DNA of 58,389 nt from a bacterium (GCA_030427125.1 JAUHXF010000004.1:1-58389), one strand, 5' to 3'. Numbered from the stretch's first letter, positions 4,880-35,734 are shown. Translations and numbers: made by a program. The notes: generated by a model not told the origin, from the sequence alone.

Positions 4880-5301
4880 TCCATTTTGAACTAGTTACGC
4901 TAACTGGAGTGAAGCTTCGAGACGATGTGTTTGAAGTGAAGCTTCCAACCCCGCAGGGACTCATTGCTGTCTATGAAAACCATGCCCCGCTTGTGTCTAC
5001 TGCCGTGACGGGTATTATTACCGTGCGCAAAAAAGATAACACACCTGATGATTTGCAAGATAACTACGCAATTGACTCAGGGGTTATTGAAATTGCCGAC
5101 AACACGGTTCGTGTGCTCGTGGATGAGGCCGACAAGGACACCGAGGTTAGCGCGAAAGAAGCCGAAGATGCCCTCAAGCGAGCAAAACAACTCCGTGCAG
5201 ATGCGAAAGACCAAGTCTCTCTTGATAAGGCTCAAGCAATTGTTGACCGTCAAGCGACCCGTCTCAAGATAGCTGAACTAAAGCGACGAAACAGAAGATA
5301 G
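4876..5301 (+). CDS. atpC: ATP synthase F1 epsilon subunit
   Basis: At 141 aa the protein matches epsilon length. The N-terminal beta-sandwich (LKLPTPQG-type motif KLPTPQGLIAVYENHAPLV) is followed by a charged two-helix C-terminal domain (AKEAEDALKRAKQ...RLKIAELKRR), the part that can inhibit hydrolysis in other bacteria. Its start overlaps the preceding ORF by 4 nt. It ends the operon: the stop lies 3 nt from the stop of the convergent gene, leaving no separate terminator between them. Confidence 0.95.
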   Translation: MIHFELVTLTGVKLRDDVFEVKLPTPQGLIAVYENHAPLVSTAVTGIITVRKKDNTPDDLQDNYAIDSGVIEIADNTVRVLVDEADKDTEVSAKEAEDALKRAKQLRADAKDQVSLDKAQAIVDRQATRLKIAELKRRNRR

Positions 5302-5304
5302 ATA

Positions 5305-6033
5305 TCAAACTTCAGTAAGCTTTGTAATTGCACCGTTGCTCAGTATTCGCACGGTACTTGTGGCTAGTAGACGAGCTATTATCATAGAGTCTGTCTCATC
5401 AATGCTAAATGTTTCTGCTCGGTTCACTGCGTGGTTAACATCCAGGTTGTAGCTTGGTGCACTCGGTGTTTGTGGATCGTTAGCCTCTGTTGAATCGTAC
5501 GTTTGTCCGTTCGTTGTATCTGCAGTGATTATCGCTGCTTCGTGGTTTTTCTTGTAGGTGACAAGTGATGCGCCTGCATCGACTGCTTTCTCGACGAGCG
5601 CTCCGCCAACAACAGCAAAGTAGTCAGAAGTCAGTAGTGTTCCGATCCCTCGCACTAGCTCTAGGGCTCTTGTTCTGTGCTCTTCGTCTAAATTCGAACC
5701 TGTGAATACTTCATCGAATGTATCGCTGCTAGAAGCATCTTCAGCAATTTCAACTATTCTTGCAGCAAAACCACAACCATCAAATTCACCCCCGTGATCT
5801 GCGGCATTGTGTACAGTATATAAGCCGCCAAGCATAGATACGTCAGCAAGTACTGATTGCTCGAGTGTCTGTGCATGGTCGTTATTATTAGCAGAGGCTA
5901 CGATATCGCGAGCAAAACTAAAGAATATGTCAGCACCCGGAACTTGTTGAAGTTCTCCATTTTCGGCACCAATAAAGGATCTATCTTCAATACAGCCTGT
6001 TTGTTCGGTTATGTTTTGTGTGCGAGTTGTCAT
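5305..6033 (-). CDS. Carbonic-anhydrase-like (beta/CDCA-type) protein, tentative
   Basis: This 242-aa soluble protein starts at 6033 (MTTRTQN), with AAGGAG 14-19 nt upstream; the longer open frame adds a hydrophobic 37-residue extension that crosses the intergenic region and looks spurious. Near the N-terminus a CIEDR motif is followed by VPGADIFF, and further on comes HNAADHGGEFDGCGFAAR. A Cys-x-x-Asp-Arg plus later His/Cys arrangement resembles zinc/cadmium-binding carbonic anhydrases of the beta/CDCA type. Ligand spacing does not match perfectly, so the call is weak. It is divergent from the antiporter gene and could share its regulation. Confidence 0.4.
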   Translation of the reverse strand: MTTRTQNITEQTGCIEDRSFIGAENGELQQVPGADIFFSFARDIVASANNNDHAQTLEQSVLADVSMLGGLYTVHNAADHGGEFDGCGFAARIVEIAEDASSSDTFDEVFTGSNLDEEHRTRALELVRGIGTLLTSDYFAVVGGALVEKAVDAGASLVTYKKNHEAAIITADTTNGQTYDSTEANDPQTPSAPSYNLDVNHAVNRAETFSIDETDSMIIARLLATSTVRILSNGAITKLTEV

Positions 6034-21133: not shown

Positions 21134-23836
21134 TCATGAAAGTAAATGGTAGTTTCTTGCCATAAAGATACGTAGATCGTTGTCAGCTAAGTTATTATTG
21201 AAGCTTGATATGATTTTACGCTGTACTTCAGGGCTCCAGTAAATATTTAAATTATTAGTAGTTCGAGTAATGGCTGTATAAAAAATATTTTTTGATACAC
21301 GCTCTTCGCTGTCTTTAGTAACGACAATTTTTACTGACTCATATTCCAGGCCTTGTGCTTTATGAATTGTTGCAGCGTATGCAACTTGGAACGGAACCAC
21401 TGTTCTTGAGTCTTCAGCAGTGTCGTCATTATCGTTATGCTTTCGTTTTTCAATTGTCATCCGGACAGATTTTTCATCTAGGTACTCAAGGCCTGCTAGT
21501 TCGGATTGTATTTGAGATATTTTGGCTCCTATAATCTCAATCGTAAACTGGATGCTGGTTTTACTGATTGCAGCTAGATCTGATATTCTTCCTTTTAAGT
21601 TATTAAATAATATCTGACCATAAGCATCAGATTCGTTGAATACTATAGGATCTCCCTTTTTATAAACAACTCCGTTCCAAACTATTTCACTTTCACTGTT
21701 TTTTGATTGGAGTAGCCTATTAATGTTATTTACACCATAGAGCCCGTCATAATTTAAGCATAATATGATTTCTTCATCAGATAGATTTTCAAATATTGAG
21801 CTGTCTAGTCTGCGTGCATACTTCTGTCTAGAGATAATTTCTTCAGCTAGAGGACCATTTTTCCTAACCTCGTTCCATAGGGCTAATAGATTATAGTCTT
21901 CTGTCCTGAATGCACCTTCAAGTTCAAAAACAGATTTCTCTGATATGAATTTTCTTATTATGTTAAACCAGTTGCCAAACCGGATAGATTGTATTTGGTA
22001 CACGTCACCAACTAAAACAAGATATTCAAAGTCTATATTTTCCAGTATCTCTACCATGTTTTTATTGCTGATGGTACTGCACTCATCTATAAACAGTACC
22101 GAGCACTTAATCTTACCTTGATGTATAGATTTTTCAACAGTCATAAATTCTCCAGAACCATGTAGACGATTCTCTAGATTGCTAACTGCAGTTTTAGTAT
22201 TCGCTAAGTAAAGTCTATCTTTATCAACAAAGTACGAGGTGATGTGTTCAATCATTTTTGTTTTGCCAGTTCCAGCTGCTCCGTAAATTAATGCAACTTT
22301 AGAAGAGTTGAACAGTGATTTTAAGATGTCTATTTTCGCTTTGTCATCAATGCCTCTGTTTTGAAAATTTAACCATCTCTCTACGCTAGATGTGTAGTTT
22401 GTCGAGCCCGTTTTGCATAAAAGTTTAAGGTGTTTAACAATTTGTTTTACATCGTCTTCGTATCCTTTGATAAAATAATGCTTATCATATTTAAGTATTT
22501 TTCTATTTTCGTGAACACCAGGAAGTCTGCTGTTGTACTTATTGACTAAATCATTAAGATTATCGAAGTCTTTTAAGTGATCTTGTGGCGTAAAAAGAGT
22601 GTCGTTTTGCTCTGTGTTTATTAGTACTCGTTTTGCGACTAGTTCATGCTCTCTGCCTGCTGAAGGGATGGCGAGTAGCACATCGTAGATTTTTGGGTTG
22701 TGATTTTTCAGTGAAGTACAATAAGGCATTTTCTCAAAAGGGAATGTTTTTTTGCTGAGATACACACCGCTAAGGCACTCATCAGTATCATAAGGATACT
22801 GTTTTTTAATAGTTTCATTCCGCATATTCAATAAAAGATACCTCAAAACGTTATGACCAATGCGGCAGTTTAAATAATAAGCTCTAAGACTACGAACTAA
22901 GTCTATAATCGTAGATTTATAGCCTGGAATCTTTACTTTATTTACGAAATCTAAGAATTCTTGTTCGTCTAAATCAATAATTTCCACTAAAGACATTTCA
23001 AACTTACTAATATGTTCCATTATAGGTAGGTAATCTTTTTGAGCTCTGTTTGCTTTTACTTCGTAACCCAAAATTCTGCCTAAATTATTAAACTCACAGG
23101 GTCTTATATTTGTTCTCCATGACTGGATTATCTCAATTGGGACGCGAATACCGTCTACCTCAATACGAGACTTCACTAGTCGTAAATCTGTTGCATAGTT
23201 GCTGAAAACTCTTTCGTTGCAAAATGCAATTCTTCTATTAAATTTATTATCTCTATCAATTGCTGGAGAGAAGACGATTTCATAATAGACTTTCGCGTTA
23301 ATGATAAAAGGTTTAACTTTATGAATATAGTAGTTGTCTTTGCTGGGTATTGATTGATTGGAGGCCTCTTTATCTATTTTGTCTGCTATGCTCTCATAGT
23401 ACTTCTGTTGCGAATCATCAGTGTTTAGCGGAAAACTGTGTATATTTTTTAGTATTTCTAGATTGTAGTTATCGTATAAGTAGTCTCTGATTCTTATTAG
23501 GACTTCAATATATTTCAGCATTAGTCTCTCTGCGCCGTCTTCATCCAGCGTGTAGTGTGAAGTAGATGATTGGGTTTGCTTATAAAAAACACGTAAAAAT
23601 GAAAGACTTGCTTGTGAGCTGACTGTGTTCATCGCTGCTTCTATGCCCGCTGGACCCTGATACCTACTATCCGTTTCTAAATCATTTGTGTGTATCAATA
23701 GAGCCACCTGATTGATTAGATTGCGGACGTTATTAATGACATTGACGGACATGAGGCCCCTGTCAGCAGCCAGTTCATCAATGTTTCGAGATATAGCATT
23801 GTCGCATCTTCTTATCTCGTCTATTACTTTGGCCAT
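21134..23836 (-). CDS. SF1 (RecD-like) helicase with large N-terminal domain
   Basis: The C-terminal half of this 900-aa protein is a superfamily-1 helicase: Walker A YGAAGTGKTK (about 515-523), Walker B LFIDECSTI (about 583), LVLVGDVYQIQSI, EGAFRTED, ATIHKAQGLEYESV and FYTAITRTTNNL, closest to RecD/TraA-type helicases. The first 500 residues match nothing I recognise and lack catalytic motifs, so they may sense nucleic acid or protein. The gene is clearly AT-richer than the atp region. It follows the nuclease gene by 58 nt on the same strand, inside inverted terminal repeats. Likely role: DNA translocation in an anti-phage or anti-plasmid system. Confidence 0.85.
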   Translation of the reverse strand: MAKVIDEIRRCDNAISRNIDELAADRGLMSVNVINNVRNLINQVALLIHTNDLETDSRYQGPAGIEAAMNTVSSQASLSFLRVFYKQTQSSTSHYTLDEDGAERLMLKYIEVLIRIRDYLYDNYNLEILKNIHSFPLNTDDSQQKYYESIADKIDKEASNQSIPSKDNYYIHKVKPFIINAKVYYEIVFSPAIDRDNKFNRRIAFCNERVFSNYATDLRLVKSRIEVDGIRVPIEIIQSWRTNIRPCEFNNLGRILGYEVKANRAQKDYLPIMEHISKFEMSLVEIIDLDEQEFLDFVNKVKIPGYKSTIIDLVRSLRAYYLNCRIGHNVLRYLLLNMRNETIKKQYPYDTDECLSGVYLSKKTFPFEKMPYCTSLKNHNPKIYDVLLAIPSAGREHELVAKRVLINTEQNDTLFTPQDHLKDFDNLNDLVNKYNSRLPGVHENRKILKYDKHYFIKGYEDDVKQIVKHLKLLCKTGSTNYTSSVERWLNFQNRGIDDKAKIDILKSLFNSSKVALIYGAAGTGKTKMIEHITSYFVDKDRLYLANTKTAVSNLENRLHGSGEFMTVEKSIHQGKIKCSVLFIDECSTISNKNMVEILENIDFEYLVLVGDVYQIQSIRFGNWFNIIRKFISEKSVFELEGAFRTEDYNLLALWNEVRKNGPLAEEIISRQKYARRLDSSIFENLSDEEIILCLNYDGLYGVNNINRLLQSKNSESEIVWNGVVYKKGDPIVFNESDAYGQILFNNLKGRISDLAAISKTSIQFTIEIIGAKISQIQSELAGLEYLDEKSVRMTIEKRKHNDNDDTAEDSRTVVPFQVAYAATIHKAQGLEYESVKIVVTKDSEERVSKNIFYTAITRTTNNLNIYWSPEVQRKIISSFNNNLADNDLRIFMARNYHLLS

Positions 23837-23894
23837 CTATCTATTAAGTCTTTCTAGTTTATGGCTGTAAGGTGGCGATTCATTATAGTAGCTC

Positions 23895-24590
23895 TTACTT
23901 TTTGGTTCTTAGTCGGGGTTTAGGAAATTCTATTGGTGTTTTAATGATGTCACAAAGTGATTCTGCGACATCTTCAAGTTGAAAATACATTCCCGTTTCT
24001 GCTTTCAGATCGTTGCGAAGTCTTTTTACGACTTCTTCTGAATACAAGAGTTTAGCGAGATGATTAGGCTGGAGTGCATTAGTTCTCTTCCAGAAACTCT
24101 CAAGCTCTCCTCTGCTTACGGCTTTTTTAGTTAAATTCCACAATAATTCTGGCGCTGATTTAAAATCGTCTTTATCCAGCAAATCCAATTTAAAAATCAA
24201 TGAGGTTGTAATAGGTTTTCCGAAGTTCACTCTATAAAGCTGTACCTCTCTACCGTTCAATAGCATTATCCAATCGATACCTTCGTTTGCTGCGTAGCTT
24301 AAACTCTGTCTAAGGTGCTTATCATTTAAGTCCAAATCTATAGATTTCACTTCAACTACAAAGTGTTTTTTCCGATTTAATTGAACCACGTAGTCTGCGT
24401 ATTCAGACCTAATCCTGTATTCCGTCTTAATGTCTTCAAGTTCAGTGTATCCAAGAATGTCAGTCAGAAAACTGTTAGTCATAATTCTTGTTGCTGATTC
24501 GTCTAGCTTTTGAAATTCTTTTTTTAAGTAACGCCTTTTGTACTTTTTTAAATTTTCTTTTATCTCACCAATTTGATTTTGAGTAGGCAT
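23895..24590 (-). CDS. HsdR-N-like PD-(D/E)xK nuclease
   Basis: The start is ATG 24590 (MPTQNQIGEI), preceded by AAGGAGA; a longer frame to 24605 runs through that Shine-Dalgarno. The 231-aa protein has the restriction-type fold: TEYRIRSEYADYVVQL gives Glu57 and Asp66, and FVVEVKS gives Glu80-x-Lys82, followed by the Q-S-x-x-Y-A...WIMLLNGREVQLY strand pattern of type I restriction R-subunit N-domains. No motor or methylase domain is attached. It is paired with the SF1 helicase downstream, and without a methyltransferase self-protection must work another way. Confidence 0.85.
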   Translation of the reverse strand: MPTQNQIGEIKENLKKYKRRYLKKEFQKLDESATRIMTNSFLTDILGYTELEDIKTEYRIRSEYADYVVQLNRKKHFVVEVKSIDLDLNDKHLRQSLSYAANEGIDWIMLLNGREVQLYRVNFGKPITTSLIFKLDLLDKDDFKSAPELLWNLTKKAVSRGELESFWKRTNALQPNHLAKLLYSEEVVKRLRNDLKAETGMYFQLEDVAESLCDIIKTPIEFPKPRLRTKK

Positions 24591-24605
24591 AGTTCTCCTT
24601 AACAA

Positions 24606-24860: not shown

Positions 24861-24926
24861 AGCCCCGACGATTCGGTACTTTGTAGCACAAAGTACGTAA
24901 GAGATTACATAATCATCTATATAATC
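24861..24926. repeat. Right inverted end of the element (includes twin palindrome copy C)
   Basis: AGCCCC..GATT, then the perfect hairpin GTACTTTGT-AGC-ACAAAGTAC (24876-24896), then copy C: GATTACATAATC followed by ATCTATATAATC (24903-24926). In reverse orientation this matches the left end at 20814-20873. Copy C is identical over 24 bp to copy D at 33933. Confidence 0.75.
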
Positions 24927-25051
24927 AAACAGCGATTGCCTGATTTGGTGTTTCAGACAGTATCTGAGAGATGAATATTCGCGTTGAAGTCTCGCCAACC
25001 TCAATAATGTGTGAGTTAGTTGTTTCGTTCTTGAAAATATCGTAAAAATTG

Positions 25052-25137
25052 TGGTGCAGAGAGAGGGATTCGAACCCCCGAAGGCGAATGCCAGCAGATT
25101 TACAGTCTGCCGTGTTTGACCGCTTCACTATCTCTGC
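25052..25137 (-). tRNA. tRNA-Tyr (GUA)
   Basis: Read on the minus strand, GCAGAGA (25137-25131) pairs with TCTCTGC and is followed by A and an encoded CCA. The anticodon loop CTGTAAA gives GUA. A long variable arm (class II), typical of bacterial tRNA-Tyr, and GGTTCGAATCC T-loop are present. It lies upstream of the prephenate dehydrogenase and TyrRS genes. Confidence 0.96.
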
Positions 25138-25168
25138 AATTGAAGGTAGTATACCGTAACGGTATCAG

Positions 25169-25198
25169 TTTGCAAAATACAGGGATAACGGATATAAT
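25169..25198 (+). promoter_or_regulatory. Promoter with leaderless geometry
   Basis: -35 TTTGCA (25169-25174), 18-nt spacer, consensus -10 TATAAT (25193-25198), then 6 nt to the ATG at 25205. No Shine-Dalgarno precedes the gene. Confidence 0.75.
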
Positions 25199-25204
25199 AA
25201 GTTT

Positions 25205-25618
25205 ATGTTAGATAGAGGTACTTTCCCTGACAGAGATCCTTCAGTCCTAGTTGAAGCAATGCAAGAAGATCAAGCTCGACGTATTTTCGATTCTGGAGTA
25301 TTGGGCCGCATGGCAACTGCTAGCCCAAATTTTGATGAAGCATTAAAGAAAGAAGGCTTTCCAATTGTCTTGTCTTCTGAAACAGATAATCTCAGGTTTA
25401 TATTCTTAGCTATAAGGTCTAAAGACCCAAATGGGGATACTAGATCTCAATTCTTCCAAGTAGGGCAGCTACTCAAGGGTCAAGTAGCAATACCAAATGA
25501 AGCACTCGGTGTGGCAGATGAAGATCTGTCGTTGTTTGGGGAGTTGTTAGCTGAAGCTGAGAGTTTAAGATCAACTGCTGCTCCAGGTTACAGCACCGAA
25601 TACGGGATTCTACTATAA
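25205..25618 (+). CDS. Hypothetical protein upstream of prephenate dehydrogenase
   Basis: This 137-aa acidic soluble protein has no membrane segment or motif I recognise. The middle (FIFLAIRSKDPNGDTRSQFFQVGQLLKGQVAIPNEA) looks like a beta-strand-rich core. It begins on a leaderless promoter and precedes the dehydrogenase by 14 nt, so the two form a transcription unit. A chorismate mutase would be expected beside such an enzyme, but the helical AroQ pattern is not visible. Confidence 0.7.
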   Translation: MLDRGTFPDRDPSVLVEAMQEDQARRIFDSGVLGRMATASPNFDEALKKEGFPIVLSSETDNLRFIFLAIRSKDPNGDTRSQFFQVGQLLKGQVAIPNEALGVADEDLSLFGELLAEAESLRSTAAPGYSTEYGILL

Positions 25619-25632
25619 ATGAGTGAATTAAC

Positions 25633-26514
25633 ATGACCGGCGAACACACAGTTGGAATTATTGGACTTGGACTAATCGGAGGGTCAATCGCAAAGGATCT
25701 GAAAGAATTAGATAATCCACCAAATGTTGTAGCTTACGACCCTAGAGAAAAAACTATTGAAGCAGCGGTTAAAAGTGGCCACATAACAGAAGGACTTCCA
25801 GTAAGTGAAATAGCTAGGGTAGCTACTACTACGGTTATTGCAGCGCCGATAGACAGAGTTGCATCATTAGGGCTTGAGATAAGAGATTCGTTATTGGCAG
25901 GTGCGGATGATACCGATGAAGGCAGAATTGTATTAGACGTGGCTAGTGTAAAAAAACCAATAAGTAACGTTTTTTCTGTACTTACTACTTCGTCAGTGGA
26001 ATTTGTGGCTACTCATCCAATGGCTGGAACAGAATTTAGCGGATTTAGCCATGCACGTAAAGGACTATTTAGGGCCAAACCTTGGGTAATCTGTCCTCAT
26101 GAAAATAACTCTGAGGGCGCAATAGAAAGCGCGGAAGCATTTATTGAGCAGTTCGGCCCGCATATAAGAGTTATGGAAGCAGATGTGCATGATAGACATG
26201 CAGCTGCGGTATCACATAGTGTAATTACCCTATCCAATTTACTATTTGATTTCATAAATGAGAGACATCCCGAAGCACTAGACCTAGCAGGAGATGGCTT
26301 CAACAGTACTACTAGGCTTGCCAGTGGTAACCCGGAAATGCACGCTAGCATTGTTCGTGCGAACAAAGGTTTCGTGTACCAATACCTAGACGAATTTTTA
26401 GAATATATAGGTAGACGTATAGATGATTTACGAGATGGAAAAGATATACTGCCTTTTTTCGAAGGAAATGCTTCAAAACGAGACGAGTGGTTGAGAAATC
26501 GAAAGAATCTATAG
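25633..26514 (+). CDS. Prephenate/arogenate dehydrogenase (TyrA-like)
   Basis: This 293-aa enzyme oxidatively decarboxylates prephenate or arogenate in tyrosine synthesis. It has a Rossmann motif GIIGLGLIGGS (residues 8-18), VIAAPID, LDVASVK, THPMAGTEFSGF and the catalytic-His helix DVHDRHAAAVSHSVITLSN, all in TyrA order. Length is normal for the core domain. No ACT domain follows, so classical feedback is absent. No other shikimate gene is visible, so the substrate may come from the host or the enzyme may act in a specialised pathway with the neighbouring TyrRS island. Confidence 0.9.
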   Translation: MTGEHTVGIIGLGLIGGSIAKDLKELDNPPNVVAYDPREKTIEAAVKSGHITEGLPVSEIARVATTTVIAAPIDRVASLGLEIRDSLLAGADDTDEGRIVLDVASVKKPISNVFSVLTTSSVEFVATHPMAGTEFSGFSHARKGLFRAKPWVICPHENNSEGAIESAEAFIEQFGPHIRVMEADVHDRHAAAVSHSVITLSNLLFDFINERHPEALDLAGDGFNSTTRLASGNPEMHASIVRANKGFVYQYLDEFLEYIGRRIDDLRDGKDILPFFEGNASKRDEWLRNRKNL

Positions 26515-26522
26515 CTGTAGTA

Positions 26523-27782
26523 CTAGTTTTCTTCTGGTATTTGTAGGCTGTAAAATCTTCTTTTACCGACCTGCAGCTTCGCACCAGCTAAATCCACAAC
26601 CTCGTGTTCTTCTTCTGAAATTTTTTCGCCATTAACTCTAACGCCACCCTGCTTTATCAGTCGTCTGGCCTCTGATTTAGATTTTGCAGCACCAATCTCT
26701 ACTAGCAAGTCTACGACTCCTTGGCTGGTTCCGCTCACATCCGCAGTTTCAAAGGCTTTTTCAGCCTCCTTGTTACTTCTGAATTGCTTATTAAAGTAAT
26801 CTTGGGCTTCTTGAGCTGCTTCCTCGTCATGGTACAGCTCTGTTATATTTGCTGCTAAATCCATTTTTACTTCCATGGGGTTTGCCGTGCCGTCCTGCAA
26901 ACCTTCTAGTCGTTCTTCAATTTCTGCCGTTGTGAAGTTGGATGCAAGTCTTAAGTATTCCTCTAAAAGCAAATCAGGAATAGACATAACTTTACCAAAC
27001 ATGTCTCGAGGTTGGTCAGTTAAACCGATGTAATTCCCTAGGGTTTTACTCATTTTCTTCGTACCGTCCAAGCCTCTGAGTAGAGGCATCAGCACCAATG
27101 CTTCCGGGCCTTCTTCTGAGTGCTGTTGTAGAGTTCTAGCTGCTTGAAAGGCATAAAGTTGATCTACACCACCAACTTCGATGTCGGCTTTTACTTCTAC
27201 AGAATCCGTGCCTTGAAGGTAAGGGTAAATGATCTCGTGCAAGCCAATAGGTGATTGGTCATCTAGTCTTTTTCTGAAGTCATCCCTTGAGATAGTTTGC
27301 GCTAAAGAGCCTTGAGCTAAAACCTTAATTAAGTCTGAAACCGACATCCTGTCCAACCATTCTGAGTTACGATGCACCTCTATAGCCGAAGTGTCCAAGA
27401 TTTTACCTAATTGGCCAAGGTATGTTCTCGCGTTTTCTTCCAAGACTTCTGCTTCGACTGTTGGTCTGCTTTTGTTTCTACCCGAAGGATCACCTATTCT
27501 TCCAGTGAAATCACCAATAATTACAACTGGTAGGTGGCCGAGTCTTTGGAACCTTCTTAGTTGCATCATCGAAACAGCGTGACCTAAATGCAGATCAGGA
27601 CTTGTTGGATCAAAACCCATCTTCACCCTAAGCTGTCTACCTTCTTCTTCTGCAACTCGAACCTTCTGCTCAATACCATTCTCTGGAATTAAAATCTGAG
27701 CATTGGTAGTAATTTCCTGAAGCAATGTCTGTCTTGTTTCTGGGTCTATTGGCTCTGGTTGTTTTGGCATGCCTTCTATCAT
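26523..27782 (-). CDS. tyrS: Tyrosyl-tRNA synthetase, TyrZ-like
   Basis: This 419-aa class I synthetase attaches Tyr to tRNA-Tyr. It has the HIGH motif as HLGH (residues 65-68), YPYLQGTDS (tyrosine-pocket Q-x-x-D), VGGVDQLYAF where most relatives have GGTDQxFNLL, and KMSK in KKMSKTLGNYIG. A C-terminal S4 domain (about 355-415) is present. The altered GGVDQ segment near the amino-acid pocket is notable. It is the last gene of a five-gene operon and converges with the dehydrogenase 8 nt away. It may be the sole TyrRS or a specialised copy. Confidence 0.92.
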   Translation of the reverse strand: MIEGMPKQPEPIDPETRQTLLQEITTNAQILIPENGIEQKVRVAEEEGRQLRVKMGFDPTSPDLHLGHAVSMMQLRRFQRLGHLPVVIIGDFTGRIGDPSGRNKSRPTVEAEVLEENARTYLGQLGKILDTSAIEVHRNSEWLDRMSVSDLIKVLAQGSLAQTISRDDFRKRLDDQSPIGLHEIIYPYLQGTDSVEVKADIEVGGVDQLYAFQAARTLQQHSEEGPEALVLMPLLRGLDGTKKMSKTLGNYIGLTDQPRDMFGKVMSIPDLLLEEYLRLASNFTTAEIEERLEGLQDGTANPMEVKMDLAANITELYHDEEAAQEAQDYFNKQFRSNKEAEKAFETADVSGTSQGVVDLLVEIGAAKSKSEARRLIKQGGVRVNGEKISEEEHEVVDLAGAKLQVGKRRFYSLQIPEEN

Positions 27783-27799
27783 ATAACAAAAATCGCTTC

Positions 27800-28747
27800 T
27801 TAACTATCTGCCAAACATCTATCAACTATATGCTGTAGCTTACTCTCAAAGGTTACTCCGTCTCTACCTATCTTACCTAGATTTCCGTATATTCCTTCGT
27901 AAAGTCTAACAATGTTCTGCAAGTGCTTCTTAGCTCCACCCAAATTTGGATCGCTTTGTTGCGCTAACAATTCCTCTACGTCCATACCAGGTCTAAGTAC
28001 AAGTCTTTGTTCGCCATCAATAGATATGTAAGGAGAAGCTTTAGGTCTGCTGGTATCAAAAGTACGTCCTGGTTTAGTGTATACAAATGACATTTGTCCT
28101 GGGTGGAATCTTAGGTATTCTCTGTCGAACCTGCGCTCATCAAATCCCATATCAGTTTCAGATGCCTGTATGATCCAGCCAAGCTTAAGTCTTACATCTT
28201 CACGGCTTCGATACCATTCCATGTCCGCCATTTCACGACGCACATACTCATGCTCATCGGAACTATCAAATGTAGAAACTAGTTCTTGATAGTCGTCGCC
28301 AGTATCAAAACTTGAGGCCCTAACAAACTCAAATGCATCTAGTCCTAGGTTTCTCTTAATTAACTCTAGAGTAGATATTGTGTCGTCTGCAATAGCGTCA
28401 ACTTGCTCATCATCAATCCAGTCATTAGTTTTTGCATGGGTGTCTGCAATATGGTGATAGACTTTATCGAATTCTCCTGCCACTCGTAACTTTTCTGCAG
28501 TTAACATCATTCCAAGGACATCAAAAGGCAGACCAACGGATATTGCATTTGGCGTCGTTAACCCGGTGCCGTAATATATACTACCACCTTCTTCTTCCAG
28601 AGTATCCTTATCGAGTGCGCCAATACTAGGTTCGGCTTCGATAAGCGCTTCATTGCGGATTATTTTTATAAGTCTGTCGTATCTATCTTGAACTGCTGGC
28701 ATTTCACTTCCTGTGTGTATTTCTTGTGGTGTATCTCTTTCAATCAT
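27800..28747 (-). CDS. Class I aminoacyl-tRNA synthetase-like protein, tentative
   Basis: The N-terminal region of this 315-aa protein, GLPFDVLGMMLTAEKLRVAG followed by YHHIADTHAKTND, resembles the Rossmann core of archaeal-type TyrRS/TrpRS (H-x-G-H helix then ADxHAxxN). RLKLGWIIQASETD and TSRPKASPYISIDG sit where the later core and KMSKS loop would be, but both signatures are degenerate. It lacks a clear anticodon-binding domain. It may make an aminoacyl adenylate or bind tRNA without normal charging. It lies 17 nt from tyrS in the same operon. The assignment rests on weak local similarity only. Confidence 0.4.
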   Translation of the reverse strand: MIERDTPQEIHTGSEMPAVQDRYDRLIKIIRNEALIEAEPSIGALDKDTLEEEGGSIYYGTGLTTPNAISVGLPFDVLGMMLTAEKLRVAGEFDKVYHHIADTHAKTNDWIDDEQVDAIADDTISTLELIKRNLGLDAFEFVRASSFDTGDDYQELVSTFDSSDEHEYVRREMADMEWYRSREDVRLKLGWIIQASETDMGFDERRFDREYLRFHPGQMSFVYTKPGRTFDTSRPKASPYISIDGEQRLVLRPGMDVEELLAQQSDPNLGGAKKHLQNIVRLYEGIYGNLGKIGRDGVTFESKLQHIVDRCLADS

Positions 28748-28767
28748 ATTCTATCCTTTTTTCGTCG

Positions 28768-29814
28768 TTATTCCATAGGAAAAACTTCATTCATTTCAGC
28801 TTCACTATATACGTTTGTGATGTAGCCCACATCATCCCACGATTCAAATGTTTTAATTGGTCCGTATTTTGCAACATAATCAGGATCAACATTGCCGTCT
28901 ATATCCAATGACGCTAAATTGTCGCCGTGGCTAACATGCCAGTCCTCGCCTACATATAGGGTTAGCCCGCTAAGGCCAGCAGCTACCTGAAAAATCTGTC
29001 TGTTTTTCCATTGCTCTGCAGTAACATACGGTGTTCGAGGGAATACTAATGCCCCACCGTCAGGATAGTTATGGCCAAAAGTAAGTGAATTTCCATCGGG
29101 GCCTACAAGTGTTGCATCTACTGCCGCTCCACCCTTGTGAGAAGCAAGCCTTGCTATAGCTGCGGTTTTGCTTTTTGCCTCCTGAACAACCCTTTCATCA
29201 CTCCAGTCTGGGTGGTCTTGACGTGTCCAGCCTACTCTTCTCTTGAATAAACCTTCTTGTACTCCAAGAGGCCTGAATGCGTCCTCAAAATGCAGACTTA
29301 TGTCCACACTATTTAGTAATTTGCCAAAAACAGCTAATCTCTCAGTGAAATCCTCTCTAGCCCAGAATAATCTTTCCCGTCCAGCCCAGAAACCACATGC
29401 TTCGTGAAAAGGTTTCGAACTAAATGAAGCACTTGTACCATATCGATCAAAAAAAGTCGGAATATGTCTAAGTTTCTCGTAGCTCTCGGTAATTGGTACT
29501 TCTAGCAATCGCTCTTGCACAGCTGTGCTGAAGTTTGCAACTGCGTCAGTCTCACCTTCATTGATTTCTTTTTTTTGATTGTCAGTTAAAGGTTCCGACA
29601 GCACTACTTCAGGCAAAAACAAAACCGCTCGAGATTCAGGCATGTCGATACCAAGTTGGTCGCACGCTTCGTCGATGTTGCTCGACATAGTGTCTACAGT
29701 CGTATTTAAATCGTCTAATACAGCACCGGGCATTTGCTCGAATGACACCCCATATTTTTCTCTTTGAAGGTCAACATTAACTTCTTCAAGATTTACGACA
29801 TTTACTCTGTTCAT
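28768..29814 (-). CDS. VanX/DdpX-like D,D-dipeptidase (M15 family)
   Basis: This 348-aa protein has the zinc-peptidase signature SHKGGAAVDATL (His226, Asp233), EDWHVSHGDN (Glu290 as base, His293 as third ligand) and an arginine in HFEDAFRPLGV (Arg181), as in VanX. VanX-type enzymes hydrolyse D-Ala-D-Ala. At 348 aa it is longer than VanX (about 200), with an extra helical N-terminal 110 residues. No signal peptide is seen, so it acts in the cytoplasm. AAGGAGA precedes the ATG. In this operon it could release amino acids from imported muropeptides or edit a product. Confidence 0.78.
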   Translation of the reverse strand: MNRVNVVNLEEVNVDLQREKYGVSFEQMPGAVLDDLNTTVDTMSSNIDEACDQLGIDMPESRAVLFLPEVVLSEPLTDNQKKEINEGETDAVANFSTAVQERLLEVPITESYEKLRHIPTFFDRYGTSASFSSKPFHEACGFWAGRERLFWAREDFTERLAVFGKLLNSVDISLHFEDAFRPLGVQEGLFKRRVGWTRQDHPDWSDERVVQEAKSKTAAIARLASHKGGAAVDATLVGPDGNSLTFGHNYPDGGALVFPRTPYVTAEQWKNRQIFQVAAGLSGLTLYVGEDWHVSHGDNLASLDIDGNVDPDYVAKYGPIKTFESWDDVGYITNVYSEAEMNEVFPME

Positions 29815-29826
29815 AGTATCTCCTTT

Positions 29827-30978
29827 CTATACTCCCCAACCATTACCATTGGGTACGAATATCGTACCGTTGTTCGATCTTTTAAGTTGTTTGCCCTCAT
29901 CTACTAAATCGTCCGAGAGCCTCTCTTGAGCTAAAGATAAGTCTCCGGGTATATTGAAGCCTTTTACTAGACAATAGGCACCTAAATGTACAGTCATGCA
30001 GCGTCCTGGTGTCGCCTCAAGCATTCCTCCAACCATAACTTGCTTACCATTGCTTGATGCATAATCTATCAGGTCTAGTGAGCGGACAAACGAGCCAATC
30101 CTGCCCGGTTTAACATTCACAATTGATGCTAAGTCTGTGTCTAATGATTCCAGGCAGTCGTCATAGGTTTCAAGACAATCATCTAAACAAATTGCAGTTT
30201 CTAGATTTGGAAGTTTTTTTCGCATAAGTTTTATTGCTTCTAGTCCCTTTAAGGCTCCTGTTCTGGATACAGGTTCTTCCATCATGATTAAACCTAATTC
30301 GTCCAAAAGTGCAATTGAAGAAATGTCTTCTCTTGTCTCTGGATTAAAGCCGCCGTTAGCGTCTACCATTATTTCTACGCCTGGATGTGTCCTTTGAATT
30401 TCTTCTATTGCTTTAACAACTTCTTGTGTGTTCTCAGGCGAAACTTTTAGTTTAATTTTTCTAGAGCCTTGCGAGATTGAATGTTCAGCTTGTTTAAGCA
30501 TTCCTTCAGAGGTTTGGGATCCAATACTCGTGCCGAAAGGTACTTCAGTTACATCAGATGTCCCTAGATAGCTAGAAACAGACACTCCAGTAGCTTTGCA
30601 ATATGCGTCAATCAAGCTCATTTCTACTGCAAGTCTTGCGGTAGGGTATCTTCCACCATCCCGGAATTCATGTCTTTGTATGTCTTCGATAAACTGAGCA
30701 CACGAATCTTTCTTACCGGTAAACGTTGTAGCTAGCTCTCTCATGTTTGCTGAAATATTATGTCCAGAGTCATCAGTGAAATATGGTTCCGGTAATGTCG
30801 CACCTTCACCTAGTCCGTTTGCACCAACATTTCCTAGCTGAATATCCATTATGGCTACGCCTGATGGACGAGTCCGTATCTCTGCAAATGATAATTGCAT
30901 TGGCTGCCTTAAACCGATATCTGCACAGTAACCCGTGAAGTTTTGTACCTCGACTGATTTTTCTAAACCTAAAGACAT
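29827..30978 (-). CDS. Enolase-superfamily OSBS/NSAR-type enzyme
   Basis: This 383-aa muconate-lactonising subgroup enzyme has K-x-K in KIKLKV (Lys176, Lys178), metal ligands in MVDANGG (Asp207), MEEP (Glu234) and LDDC (Asp266), and the second base in NVKPGRIGS (Lys290). The C-terminal GGMLEATPGR...FNIPGDLSLAQERLSDDL is characteristic of o-succinylbenzoate synthase / N-succinylamino-acid racemase. No other menaquinone gene is near, while a GNAT-like acyltransferase is directly upstream, so N-acylamino-acid racemisation is the better guess. The start at 30978 overlaps the upstream stop (TAATG); a TTG 6 nt earlier is possible. Confidence 0.85.
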   Translation of the reverse strand: MSLGLEKSVEVQNFTGYCADIGLRQPMQLSFAEIRTRPSGVAIMDIQLGNVGANGLGEGATLPEPYFTDDSGHNISANMRELATTFTGKKDSCAQFIEDIQRHEFRDGGRYPTARLAVEMSLIDAYCKATGVSVSSYLGTSDVTEVPFGTSIGSQTSEGMLKQAEHSISQGSRKIKLKVSPENTQEVVKAIEEIQRTHPGVEIMVDANGGFNPETREDISSIALLDELGLIMMEEPVSRTGALKGLEAIKLMRKKLPNLETAICLDDCLETYDDCLESLDTDLASIVNVKPGRIGSFVRSLDLIDYASSNGKQVMVGGMLEATPGRCMTVHLGAYCLVKGFNIPGDLSLAQERLSDDLVDEGKQLKRSNNGTIFVPNGNGWGV

Positions 30979-32171
30979 TACCAATTTCCTGATATATTGC
31001 TTCCGAGTGTTCCGAGATTCGAGTTCCAGAAAGGATTCGGTTTACCTTCAGAGTCCCATGCAGTCTTTACCACGCCAACACCACTTCGTAATCTACCAAA
31101 TAACAAAGCAGCTTCTTCAAAATCTGTAGGCGGTTTGTATCCGTACAATTTGAAGCCGTTTATGATTAGATCTGATTGCATTTGTGTGGTATCGGATTCG
31201 ACAGGTACCTCGACCTGTATGAAAGGTGATCCAACTCGTACGGCTTCTTCAACGCATTCCTCCACGGTTTTCGGGTCGATAGTCGCTTGTGATTGAACAA
31301 TATCTGCATGTACAAATTCGGTTAGGCCTGTTTCTTGTGGAGGGTAGTGTACCTCATACCCTGTAGCGGTAGCTGCAGTTGCTTCGCTGCTTGCCCATCC
31401 TGGCTGGTCTAATTGATACTGTGCGTGCCATTGTTTAACGAATTCCTGGTGTGTCTCATCTTCTACAAAAAGCTCCACAGCACCTCTCATTACTGTCCTG
31501 GCGACAGCCGAATAGCTAAACTGCTCTAGCATTTCTGCCTTCAGGTATAATGGTGCGACTCCATACAAACGTAGACCAGGAAATTTTCTCCAGTGTTCAG
31601 TTACTGCTTGTCCACCTCTCATTACAAAACTAGAACCATCTGCAAGTTCTATCGGTCGGTCTGGAGCACTTCTTAGCGTAGCAAAAAGTGTGTGAAATTT
31701 TAATGCAACGTCATCCCTGTTAAGCCAATTAAGTAACCTTAAATCTTGGATTACTGTGTTTCTTGCTCGTCCTAAGCTCGCTGCACGACCCAACTCAGCA
31801 CGTCCATCTCCGGTATCTACCATACAAGCTGTACCAGTTAGTATCCCGTTAGTTTTCATCAGGTATAGATCAAGTTCGCCGTTTTCAATAGCTGTGGTAT
31901 TAGCCTCAGGGTCTTTGTTGGGAAGAGCATAAGTAGGACCATAAGCTTCGATAATTATGTCGGCATGGAGTTGACCTGCTTCTTCGCTATGACTTCTACA
32001 CCAATCTGCATCGAGCACAACAACTTCATCGCCTGATGCATTCGCATCATCTAGCTTAGCTTTAATGTTTCCAGCAAGGTGGTCCTTTAATGAGTTTAGT
32101 TCGTCGCCATGAACAACGGATAATGGAACATCATGACCAGCTCCGATGACATTGATAATTTCTGGGCTCAT
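30978..32171 (-). CDS. GNAT-like acyltransferase, first gene of the amino-acid operon
   Basis: LYLMKTNGILTGTACMVDTGDGRAELGRAASLGRARNTVIQDLRL in this 397-aa protein shows the strand-helix pattern of a GNAT acyl-CoA site (x-G-R-a/g near R-G), and FIQVEVPVES...INGFKLYGYKPP is like the C-terminal GNAT fold, so it may hold two GNAT-like halves. GNAT acyltransferases move acetyl or succinyl groups from CoA to amines. In characterised systems a GNAT succinyltransferase works with NSAR to convert D- to L-amino acids. GAAGGAGA precedes the ATG. Substrate is inferred from context only. Confidence 0.6.
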   Translation of the reverse strand: MSPEIINVIGAGHDVPLSVVHGDELNSLKDHLAGNIKAKLDDANASGDEVVVLDADWCRSHSEEAGQLHADIIIEAYGPTYALPNKDPEANTTAIENGELDLYLMKTNGILTGTACMVDTGDGRAELGRAASLGRARNTVIQDLRLLNWLNRDDVALKFHTLFATLRSAPDRPIELADGSSFVMRGGQAVTEHWRKFPGLRLYGVAPLYLKAEMLEQFSYSAVARTVMRGAVELFVEDETHQEFVKQWHAQYQLDQPGWASSEATAATATGYEVHYPPQETGLTEFVHADIVQSQATIDPKTVEECVEEAVRVGSPFIQVEVPVESDTTQMQSDLIINGFKLYGYKPPTDFEEAALLFGRLRSGVGVVKTAWDSEGKPNPFWNSNLGTLGSNISGNW

Positions 32172-32206
32172 CCACTAATCTCCTTCACCTAATAAATACT
32201 AAGTAA

Positions 32207-32235
32207 ATAGTAGTATAAAAATGCATAACAGTCAA
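32207..32235 (-). promoter_or_regulatory. Promoter of the five-gene amino-acid operon
   Basis: On the minus strand: -35 TTGACT (32235-32230), 17-nt spacer, -10 TACTAT (32212-32207), followed by GAAGGAGA before the ATG at 32171. Confidence 0.7.
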
Positions 32236-32244
32236 CAATATTGA

Positions 32245-33264
32245 TTATTTAATAAATTCCAAAATATCTCTGTTTTTTGGAATATATTTGCTTGCTCGAT
32301 AAACCTTCGATTTTCCTGCTTTTTTTAGTGATTCCCAGCTACCATACTTAAACGCATCCTCGAAGCTGGCAACTCTTACGCTGTTCGCCTCTAGTTCCTC
32401 GTGTAGTAATAAGGAGCAATCCAATGCGTTACTGTCTTTATGTATCAACCACTGGCCTATACCCAGATGTCCAATAGTGTAAAATATTTTTTGATCATAG
32501 GTGTTTAATATAATCTCGAAAAAGTCAGTGAGTTTTGTCCTAAGTATCGTACTGTCAATGCCAACTGTTTTAAGCTCCTCGTCATTAAAGTCAGACAACT
32601 CCAAAAGTTCTTTAGCATTCAAGTGAATAGTATTAGTTTCTTTGTTAGTTTCTATCAATCTACCGGAAGAAACATTAATTATTTTTATCCAAGGCTTTGC
32701 TCCTATGAGACCGAATTCTTCTATTACCGGCATGTCGTTATCTTCGACCTTATCGATGTCAGGGATTAACCCCTTAGCTGTTTCTTCGTAAAACCTTGTT
32801 ATTATTTTGTTGTTTAAGACATATTGTTTATCGTTTGGGTAGACCCTAGATAGGTGTCTATTTTTTTCAAAAGGTTTTTGAAGAAGCGAGTGATCAAAAT
32901 AAGCAACTTCTTGCTTGAGTATTCTTTCGTCATTTTCGACGTCATGGTCGTCTCGAATGATTTGAAGCAGTACATTACATTCCTTTATTTGGCCGAGAAA
33001 CTCATTACCCAGACCCTTTCCTTCACTTGCTCCCTCAATTAGTCCTGCTATATCCCAAAGTTCAATCTGGCTGTACTTTAAATCTTCAGCTGATATTTTT
33101 TTAGCTAATCTTTCAAAAGGCTCATCTGGTATGTTGAGCATTGCTTTGTTAGTAGCTACTGTAGAAAACGGATAATTAGCTATCAGCGCGGATTGTCCTG
33201 TCAACGCATTAAATAATGTAGACTTTCCAGCATTTGGCAAACCGATTAATCCTATTTTTAGCAT
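32245..33264 (-). CDS. YchF/Obg-family GTPase, diverged
   Basis: This 339-aa translation-factor-class GTPase has G1 GLPNAGKST, switch segment ANYPFSTVATN, and G3 DIAGLIEGASEGKGLGNEFL, with the C-terminal TGS-like end SFEDAFKYGSW...YRASKYIPKNRDILEFIK typical of YchF. It is AT-rich, shorter than YchF (about 365) and diverged in the middle, so it may be a second, specialised copy. The start is set at ATG 33264: -10 TAAAAT (33276-33271) lies exactly 6 nt upstream, giving a leaderless message; ATG 33270 directly abuts the -10. Confidence 0.85.
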   Translation of the reverse strand: MLKIGLIGLPNAGKSTLFNALTGQSALIANYPFSTVATNKAMLNIPDEPFERLAKKISAEDLKYSQIELWDIAGLIEGASEGKGLGNEFLGQIKECNVLLQIIRDDHDVENDERILKQEVAYFDHSLLQKPFEKNRHLSRVYPNDKQYVLNNKIITRFYEETAKGLIPDIDKVEDNDMPVIEEFGLIGAKPWIKIINVSSGRLIETNKETNTIHLNAKELLELSDFNDEELKTVGIDSTILRTKLTDFFEIILNTYDQKIFYTIGHLGIGQWLIHKDSNALDCSLLLHEELEANSVRVASFEDAFKYGSWESLKKAGKSKVYRASKYIPKNRDILEFIK

Positions 33265-33351
33265 AGTCATATTTTACTAGATTTGGATGCCCCTAAAATA
33301 ATATAAAGTTTTAATTTTCTGTTTGTTCACACTTAGCTAGGAAAAATGTTT

Positions 33352-33717
33352 TTAACGACAAGAAATAGTTTGTAATTCTCTGGCATGTCCAAGTAGATCT
33401 TTGTTATTGACTACGCCCCCGAACTCATCGGAATCCAGGAGTGGAAATTTGTTCTCCGTCAAAGTAAGCCAAGGTTCATGTTCGCCACCTGGCGCGGCCA
33501 CTTTTCCGCTACTGGCAAGGGCATTGAAGATAAGACTTGACCCAGACCGTGATGCGCACAAAACCACATAAACATCATCTACTCTTTCATTCCATCCTGT
33601 ATGTTCGGTAATGATAAGATCAGCTAATACTTCAGTGTTTAAGCCCCGATAATAGTCAACCAGATTGCTGGTGTTAGTTCCCGATATAATCGGTGAGATT
33701 TCCTGGCCGTAAGACAT
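33352..33717 (-). pseudogene. Truncated sulfotransferase-like protein
   Basis: Only 121 codons remain of what looks like a larger enzyme: VYVVLCASRSGSSLIFNALASSG matches the 5'-phosphosulfate-binding P-loop of Stf0-like sulfotransferases (S-R-S/T-G-S-S), but the 3'-phosphate-binding serine region and the rest of the fold are missing. The frame stops 82 nt before the GTPase gene with no continuation. AAGGAA precedes the ATG. It may be a remnant at the island edge or a small P-loop protein in its own right. Confidence 0.55.
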
Positions 33718-34045
33718 TTAGTTCCTTACTATTTCAATAACATAAAAATAATATTAACGCAATAGATTGACAGGGTTAGACTATCGTTTGAAATTAGAAA
33801 TTTACAAACGTAACAGGCATCTGCTACAAAAATAAATTGAAAAGTCGAAGCTCACTCTTTGACCCTAGCGTTACTCTATAATAAAAAAGTAAAAGTTAGT
33901 TGTGGATACAGAAAGAAGTCCACCATGTCGTAGATTACATAATCATCTATATAATCCCTGCCTGCTCTCTGGCTACATCTCCATGACAAGGGTAGCGGTG
34001 TTATACTGAAACTGAAATAACAGCGTTAGTACCAAAGGTAAACTT
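33718..34045. other. Intergenic region containing twin palindrome copy D
   Basis: No gene is seen in these 328 bases. It is AT-rich to about 33900, then holds repeat copy D (33933-33956), and TATACT (34002-34007), a likely -10 for the Vps62-like gene, although a good -35 is not evident. Confidence 0.6.
33933..33956. repeat. Twin 12-bp palindrome, copy D
   Basis: GATTACATAATC then ATCTATATAATC, identical over all 24 bp and in the same orientation as copy C at 24903. The two bracket the amino-acid/tRNA island as direct repeats. Confidence 0.8.
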
Positions 34046-35734
34046 TTGAAAATTGATAGTAATTCATTATTGAAAAAACATATGCCCATCCTGCACTTCA
34101 CAAAGGGTGAGAGATTCTTCCCGATGCATGTCGAAGACTATGTGCAGCAGAGCAGACTCATGCGGGTGCCGCAAGACGATTCAGAAAGCGTGGTGCTGCA
34201 GAAAAATGTAGCTATCGAAGCGCTCAATGCAAAGCTACCTAATGGGGCGTATCTCGAGTTCGTATCCAAGGATGATCTAAGAAAAGCACGTCTCAAGCCG
34301 CTCCATGTAAAGCGCACATCATCGAAAAGTCACCGTCTGACGTATGTTGGTTTAGCGGGGAGAGTTGCCGACACGGTATTCCGCTCTGCAAATATATTCC
34401 GCTCACTCGTGCCGGCAGGAGTATCTGACGCAGCAGCTATGAAGGTGCGGCAGCATACGGTTGATAAGCAACCTGTTGTGTACGGTCGTATGGTAGAAGA
34501 TGACAGCTGGGTGGTGCTGCAATACTACTATTTCTATGCGATGAATGACTGGCGTTCGCACTTTGCAGGGGTGAATGATCACGAATCTGACTGGGAGCAA
34601 GTACTCATCTACCTAGACAAGAAGAGTCTCTCTCCTGCGTGGCTGGCCTATGCAACGCATGATCATCATGGCGATGATTTGCGGCGTAGTTGGCATGACG
34701 ATGAAGTGAAGAAAGAAGGATTGCGGCCGGTAGTATATGTCGGCGCGGGTTCACACGCAAGCTATTTTTCTAAGGGCGAATATCTGATGAGCATTCATTT
34801 GTCATTCACGAAGCTTTTCACCACTATACAAAGGCGACTACGTAGAATGGCGCGGTTGCCATACGATCAGAGTGGCTTCGAGCTGCCATTCATTGACCTG
34901 GCGCATGGAAATGGCCGGAAGACAGTAGAAAAAGATGATTTCAAGCTCGTCGAGATAGACAAGTCTATGCGGTGGGTGCACGATTACAGAGGTCTCTGGG
35001 GGCTAGACACACGAGACAATGCAGACGGCGAACGCGCTCCAGCTGGCCCAAAGTTCAATAGGGACGGCAGTATACGCGCATCATGGGCTGATCCAGTTGG
35101 CTGGGCTGGGCTGCACAAAATTGATACCGCATCAGAGCTTGATGAACGCGGTAGAGTAAAGAAAATTGATACATATGTTGACGCGAGTATTGCAGAATTA
35201 TTACAGGAAATTGACCTGTTAAACACCGCAAGAACACCCGAAAGCATCGCGCAGATTGCTGCAATTGAGAAAAAGATAACTGAACTCAAGCAGATGCAGG
35301 TTGCTTTGAAAGATTCAGAGACAGTTCGTAGTAGAGAAAGCGCCGACTCTCATAGCCGAGCACATTTAAAAAATCCGGCAATACCTTTGGAAGAAGATCT
35401 TCCGAGCCGCCGTTTGTTTTTGAATGCATGGGCGTTAGTGAGCGCTCCTGTCGTGTTTGCTCTGTTGAGTATCGCAAGCATATATCCAGCTGACGACAGA
35501 TGGCGTTTTCTATTTTTTGGTGCGGTAACTATCCTCGTTATTGAGCTCTTTGCAAAACGAAACTTGGTGCGCTATCTCATACTCTATGCGTATATTTTTG
35601 TGGTTTTAGTGCTCTTGGCGATGCTCGCAAACATAGTCGTAGCAGAGTTCTTTGTTGGTTTTGCGGCTGTATTTGGGCTGCTGACACTCGTGAGTCTGTA
35701 CTGGAATATAAAAGACAGAATCACGCTACGTTAA
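34046..35734 (+). CDS. Vps62-like protein with C-terminal membrane helices
   Basis: The central region of this 562-aa protein, VLQYYYFYAMNDWRS...VNDHESDWEQVLIYLD...AYATHDHHGDD...VVYVGAGSHASYF, is the Vps62-type signature of acidic and His residues (H-E-S-D-W-E, H-D-H, G-S-H-A). The family's biochemical role is unclear; it occurs in surface and secretion contexts. A charged linker (about 385-440) precedes four membrane helices (about 458-550). Start taken as TTG 34046 with AAAGGT 6 nt upstream; ATG 34082 is the alternative. Confidence 0.75.
   Translation: MKIDSNSLLKKHMPILHFTKGERFFPMHVEDYVQQSRLMRVPQDDSESVVLQKNVAIEALNAKLPNGAYLEFVSKDDLRKARLKPLHVKRTSSKSHRLTYVGLAGRVADTVFRSANIFRSLVPAGVSDAAAMKVRQHTVDKQPVVYGRMVEDDSWVVLQYYYFYAMNDWRSHFAGVNDHESDWEQVLIYLDKKSLSPAWLAYATHDHHGDDLRRSWHDDEVKKEGLRPVVYVGAGSHASYFSKGEYLMSIHLSFTKLFTTIQRRLRRMARLPYDQSGFELPFIDLAHGNGRKTVEKDDFKLVEIDKSMRWVHDYRGLWGLDTRDNADGERAPAGPKFNRDGSIRASWADPVGWAGLHKIDTASELDERGRVKKIDTYVDASIAELLQEIDLLNTARTPESIAQIAAIEKKITELKQMQVALKDSETVRSRESADSHSRAHLKNPAIPLEEDLPSRRLFLNAWALVSAPVVFALLSIASIYPADDRWRFLFFGAVTILVIELFAKRNLVRYLILYAYIFVVLVLLAMLANIVVAEFFVGFAAVFGLLTLVSLYWNIKDRITLR

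Follow-up and report, generated by a model that had tools for sequence, protein, structure and literature searches.

In CPR and DPANN genomes, Mukai et al. 2017 (PMC5370408) described operons composed of a tRNA-Trp (A73), an open reading frame of unknown function (ORF1) and an archaeal-type tryptophanyl-tRNA synthetase (TrpRS-A). A tRNA-ORF1-synthetase operon is thus already described in these organisms, for tryptophan. A second related system is that of the cyclodipeptide synthases (CDPSs) AlbC, Rv2275 and YvmC, which have a TyrRS/TrpRS-derived fold, have lost the HIGH motif and hold the aminoacyl group with Y178-x3-E182 (PMC4159871, PMC2922099). Two further systems are the GNAT-NSAR operons, which convert D- to L-amino acids and place an NSAR-type enolase within an amino-acid gene set, and TyrZ of Bacillus subtilis, an L-Tyr-selective synthetase that is the second TyrRS of its genome (PMC9437257). 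Here we compare with them a tyrosine locus in a window of 58,389 nucleotides. The tryptophan operons resemble this locus in their extra tRNA, their extra (archaeal-type) synthetase, a class-I-synthetase-like and apparently homologous ORF1, the kinds of organism that carry them, and avoidance of the cognate amino acid in many members. They differ in that the window uses tyrosine, has a bacterial-type tRNA and TyrRS, and includes an enolase, an M15 dipeptidase and TyrA; accessories of ORF1 are not described in that work. CDPSs differ in having a catalytic serine that is absent here and in lacking the dedicated tRNA and synthetase found here, GNAT-NSAR operons in that the window has no recognisable GNAT and no deacylase, and TyrZ in that the passages on it in PMC9437257 mention no synthetase-like partner protein.

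The window, contig 28, belongs to a genome (G000) of 924 kb and 90% completeness that was placed in the phylum of a Candidatus Beckwithbacteria genome, the Patescibacteria. A sequence-only reading had proposed an island bracketed by identical 24-bp direct repeats. The island is real, with all ORFs at the positions claimed, and the repeats are present and exact, but they measure 25 bp (24902–24926 and 33932–33956); with up to 3 mismatches allowed, the 924-kb genome has no further copy. Within them lie a tRNA-Tyr(GTA) gene (25052–25137, minus strand; G1-C72, long variable arm, CCA encoded) and two plus-strand genes, a 137-aa ORF without family (25205–25618) and a TyrA of the prephenate dehydrogenase family (25633–26514; PDH_N 1e-22, PDH_C 4e-11). 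This unit converges on a minus-strand operon encoding a 397-aa orphan protein (30978–32171), an enolase (29827–30984), an M15 dipeptidase (28768–29814), a 315-aa TyrRS-like protein (27800–28747) and TyrRS (26523–27782), with gaps of 12–20 bp and one overlap of 7 bp between the five genes. The "clear promoter" reported for the operon could not be confirmed: TTGACT-17-TACTAT (32207–32235, minus strand) is a consensus match only, at 9/12 positions, in a region without excess of such matches (18 found, 21.5 +/- 4.8 expected). Also inside the repeats, and absent from the earlier description, are a divergent YchF-like GTPase (168 bits, TIGR00092 cut-off 279) and a Stf0-sulfotransferase-like ORF of 121 aa, probably a fragment (32245–33717).

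Most of the family assignments made from the sequence alone were borne out, including those of TyrA and tRNA-Tyr given above. TyrRS scored 332 bits against TIGR00234 (cut-off 114) and has HLGH, a HIGH-type motif, and KMSKT. The best solved relatives of the enolase are N-acylamino acid racemases (PDB), and alignment with 2zc8, 1wuf and 2ggg indicates that its catalytic residues (KxK, D, E, D and the second K) are kept, placing it by sequence in the NSAR/OSBS subgroup. A menaquinone OSBS role is disfavoured by the best PDB matches being NSARs and by the lack of any men gene among the neighbours; pointing the other way, NSAR and OSBS belong to one subgroup, and TIGR01928, which is the best NCBIfam model (158 bits, under the equivalog cut-off of 200.7), carries the name o-succinylbenzoate synthase. 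The VanX-like M15 dipeptidase (Peptidase_M15 1e-7) carries an extra N-terminal region and keeps its metal and catalytic motifs, HxxxxxxD and ExxH, as SHKGGAAVD and EDWH; against the NCBIfam VanX equivalog it reached 12.5 bits, short of the cut-off of 320. The 397-aa protein had been taken for a GNAT, but it has no Pfam, NCBIfam or PDB match and no similarity to two genuine, plasmid-borne NSAR-linked GNATs, which are about 245 aa long. AF2 modelling of the protein alone gave a pLDDT of 33, and no viral or plasmid relatives were found. With no GNAT recognisable in the 397-aa protein by sequence, neither GNAT-NSAR salvage nor D-to-L conversion via N-succinylation is supported as the organising idea; the NSAR-type enolase stands. 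The window also holds no deacylase, in agreement with the reported lack of a desuccinylase.

The 315-aa protein, in which HIGH and KMSKS are lost, matches no Pfam family. An AF2 model built from four sequences reached a moderate pLDDT of 71, and Foldseek matched it to archaeal TyrRSs (E 8e-9, probability 1.00, TM 0.53). Since sequence-only profile comparison of its family with TyrRS is weak (hhalign 4–13%), the claim of kinship with TyrRS rests on this match, by which the protein is predicted to have an archaeal-TyrRS-like fold. HIGH and KMSKS are missing in all members of the family. Across the Tyr branch and the Trp branch introduced below, 13 positions are near-invariant, including D102, Y168, K188, E204, D208 and R248, and conserved polar positions that are not common to TyrRS suggest that the protein has an activity of its own. 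By alignment position, Y168-x3-E172 would take the place of Y178-x3-E182 in CDPSs. The catalytic serine of CDPSs, located in a G-x-S motif in the loop after strand 1, is absent: the Tyr branch has G60-x-G62 and the Trp branch G-E-T. This gene had been noticed as "aaRS-like" in the sequence-only reading but was not singled out, though it is the most conserved and most novel part of the island.

Relatives of the TyrRS-like protein were found in 17 Patescibacteria/DPANN genomes, one of them labelled Nanoarchaeota, and none were found in viruses, phages or plasmids. A tRNA-Tyr gene adjoins the TyrRS-like gene at 10/17 loci and a TyrRS gene at 14/17, counts in which contig ends cut some loci; in G318 and G433 there is no adjacent TyrRS. 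The window genome has a second tRNA-Tyr (G000:C18) beside tRNA-Thr genes, and since a non-cluster tRNA-Tyr likewise lies beside tRNA-Thr in G354, G221 and G432, the cluster gene is a surplus tRNA-Tyr in each of the four genomes checked. The window genome also holds two TyrRS genes, one in the cluster and one at G000:C10 beside recG, which fall apart in a TyrRS tree; the cluster TyrRS is an extra copy in G431 and G432 as well. The Gottesmanbacteria genome G431 carries an archaeal-type tRNA-Tyr/TyrRS pair together with a YbaK-type protein (locus L015, 612–3216), the tRNA having C1-G72 and no long variable arm, in a genome that also has a bacterial-type TyrRS; the contig that forms this locus is 4.7 kb long and may have been misbinned. 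At another locus (L075, 1201–3212) one tRNA-Tyr is flanked by two different TyrRS-like subfamilies, just upstream of TyrRS.

To examine the tryptophan operons, archaeal-type TrpRS loci were located and their neighbours searched with a Tyr-family HMM, which matched best the proteins in the ORF1 position (E 9e-11, 1e-6, 8e-6, 2e-4 and weaker), with ORF1 assigned by position and lack of Trp rather than by the accessions of Mukai et al., and the Tyr and Trp-type families aligned with an hhalign probability of 95.9%. These comparisons indicate that the TyrRS-like family and ORF1 of the tRNA-Trp/TrpRS-A operons are homologous and that the 315-aa protein is a Tyr-branch relative of ORF1; as in those operons, the window has both the cognate tRNA and the synthetase as extra copies. 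Much of the gene set recurs elsewhere, in the unexpected form of a tryptophan version, which counts against the refuting condition of a set absent from other genomes. In G691, the neighbours of a Trp-type ORF1 and an extra TrpRS-A include an M15 protein and an NSAR-type enolase, so that a full-length M15 protein, an NSAR-type enolase, a synthetase-like protein and an extra synthetase are shared with the window. The M15 protein is 40% identical to that of the window over its full length, extra N-terminal region included (E 1e-75), and keeps the same motifs; for the enolase, E is 2e-20. Because G691 repeats the accessory set, it provides the strongest evidence that the window genes belong together, and it is the only other locus to have both M15 and enolase in common with the window. 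Further neighbours in G691 are an M28 peptidase, an Asp/Glu racemase, a YbaK-type editing protein and a weakly GNAT-like protein.

Elsewhere, recurring neighbours are Asp/Glu racemase genes in G318, G432, G433 and G653 and aminotransferase genes in G432, G545 and G575. TyrA is a neighbour in G432 in addition to the window, PDT and DAHP synthase are neighbours in G432, and chorismate mutase in G734. Minimal modules are without tailoring enzymes. Aminoacyl-tRNA editing domains occur beside or fused to synthetases in both branches (G431, G459, G691 and Trp loci). Examples of fusions are B3/4-TyrRS (L073, 5874–7742) and a Trp-free YbaK-type-TrpRS (L122, 4206–5660), and two more genes resemble YbaK-TrpRS fusions by eye (L118, 2544–4475; L121, 4573–6054). 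Between the TyrRS-like and B3/4-TyrRS genes of L073, a Trp-repressor-family protein (5282–5815) may be a regulator.

As judged by homology, the trio of tRNA, synthetase and TyrRS-like protein thus recurs, a tryptophan branch exists, and M15 and NSAR-type enolase proteins occur with both branches. The reading we favour, to which we assign a probability of roughly 40%, is that the TyrRS-like protein uses Tyr-tRNA outside translation, in a tRNA-dedicated aromatic amino-acid module. The core of this recurring module would be a dedicated tRNA-Tyr, a dedicated TyrRS and the TyrRS-like protein without ATP motifs, and the island would be an expanded, possibly mobile version of it. The extra TyrRS would charge the extra tRNA-Tyr. 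The TyrRS-like protein, which seems to keep the positions that contact tyrosine in TyrRS yet would be incapable of the usual activation, may have Tyr-tRNA, or tyrosine passed on by it, as the substrate of a non-translational reaction. TyrA would supply tyrosine, and an N-acyl or dipeptide compound containing tyrosine would be cleaved, or given its stereochemistry, by the enolase and dipeptidase. This agrees with the earlier hunch that the synthetase-like genes and tRNA-Tyr indicate amino-acid or tRNA-dependent chemistry. Use of Tyr-tRNA is favoured by the TyrRS fold without HIGH or KMSKS in all members, by the recurrence of tRNA-Tyr and TyrRS beside the gene, as extra copies in the genomes checked, by Y-x3-E at the CDPS position together with the 13 near-invariant positions, by the tryptophan version in G691 and the editing domains in both branches, and by the archaeal-type pair in the G431 cluster. 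It is weakened by the absence of the CDPS catalytic serine, by the minimal modules without tailoring enzymes, by M15 and enolase being common to one other locus only, and by the moderate AF2 confidence and weak sequence-only comparison with TyrRS.

Nearly as likely is a tyrosine (or tryptophan) limitation operon, all parts of which would provide and capture a scarce amino acid. TyrA and aminotransferases would make it, racemases and the NSAR-type enolase would salvage its D- or N-acyl forms, dipeptidases would release it, and the extra tRNA and synthetase would charge it, with the TyrRS-like protein as a charging accessory. The neighbouring TyrA, aminotransferase, PDT, DAHP synthase and chorismate mutase genes are in line with such a role. 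A response to limitation also fits better with two other observations, the presence of Trp-repressor-family and Lrp/AsnC proteins near two loci and the amino-acid composition of the modules. In 12 members of the G221 (Microgenomates-type) class, the TyrRS-like proteins contain 2–6 tyrosines (about 1%) against a local background of 2.3–3.9%, with a Fisher-combined p of about 1e-9 that overstates the significance because related sequences are not independent; five Trp-type modules contain zero tryptophan. For the minimal modules at least, such composition speaks for a function when the amino acid is limiting. In the expanded loci, window included, depletion is absent or weak: the TyrRS-like protein of the window is not Tyr-poor (3.8% vs 3.2%), and neither are the other window proteins. 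Limitation also leaves unexplained the constant part of the system, a synthetase-like protein without ATP motifs, as well as the editing domains.

Alternatively, the TyrRS-like protein could have no catalytic role and serve TyrRS as a partner subunit or regulator, the heterodimer of the two tuning how the second tRNA is charged, much as Mukai et al. suggested a partner-subunit role for ORF1 (PMC5370408). TyrRS and TrpRS are dimers and the gene usually adjoins the synthetase gene, as such a partnership would predict, but the loci without adjacent TyrRS in G318 and G433 and the conserved polar positions that TyrRS does not share, which point to an activity of its own, make it unlikely. Chance assembly in an integrated island, with a real trio and the enolase, M15, 397-aa protein and TyrA as unrelated cargo, is highly improbable: although the exact repeats also bracket the YchF-like GTPase and the short sulfotransferase-like ORF, and the enolase and 397-aa genes were found in no sampled relative, G691 has the same M15 protein and an NSAR-type enolase beside its Trp-type ORF1, the operon is tightly spaced, and TyrA appears again in G432.

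Neither a tyrosine branch, nor a common superfamily, nor the racemase/dipeptidase expansion was found in open-licence PMC literature, and a 2022 review of duplicated synthetases (PMC9437257) tabulates no TyrRS-like protein with a function of its own. The data join the tRNA-Trp ORF1 operons and the tyrosine loci into one putative synthetase-derived superfamily with dedicated tRNAs in highly reduced bacteria, and such recurring sets in ultra-small bacteria and an archaeon suggest that amino acids or charged tRNA are used in a way not yet recognised. It is a tentative and somewhat doubtful extension of the Tyr-tRNA reading that this Patescibacteria/DPANN superfamily, distinct from CDPSs, takes tyrosine or tryptophan off dedicated tRNAs for non-ribosomal chemistry; the window would then be a tyrosine cluster equipped with a racemase-type enolase, a dipeptidase and a tyrosine supply of its own. 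Should the TyrRS-like protein use aminoacyl-tRNA, it would join the CDPSs as a further TyrRS-type fold turned to non-translational chemistry. The function lends itself to testing in vitro, given the conserved residues of the protein, the tRNA and synthetase that naturally accompany it and a compact set of accessory enzymes.

To judge by the exact repeats, the unit may have moved. The window contains no recognised integrase, and no empty integration site was found, the locus not being syntenic in relatives and the flanking gene used as a probe (34046–35734) not being conserved. Left of the island, a segment of low GC content (34–37%; 21134–24605) encodes a 900-aa ATPase/helicase-like protein and an HSDR_N-type nuclease-like protein, and looks like a separate acquisition, perhaps defence-related. 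Near the Trp-type clusters of G734 and G691 we observed large serine recombinases (L116, 3–1157; L123, 10895–12181), and both of these clusters have tRNA-Gln and gltX in their vicinity.
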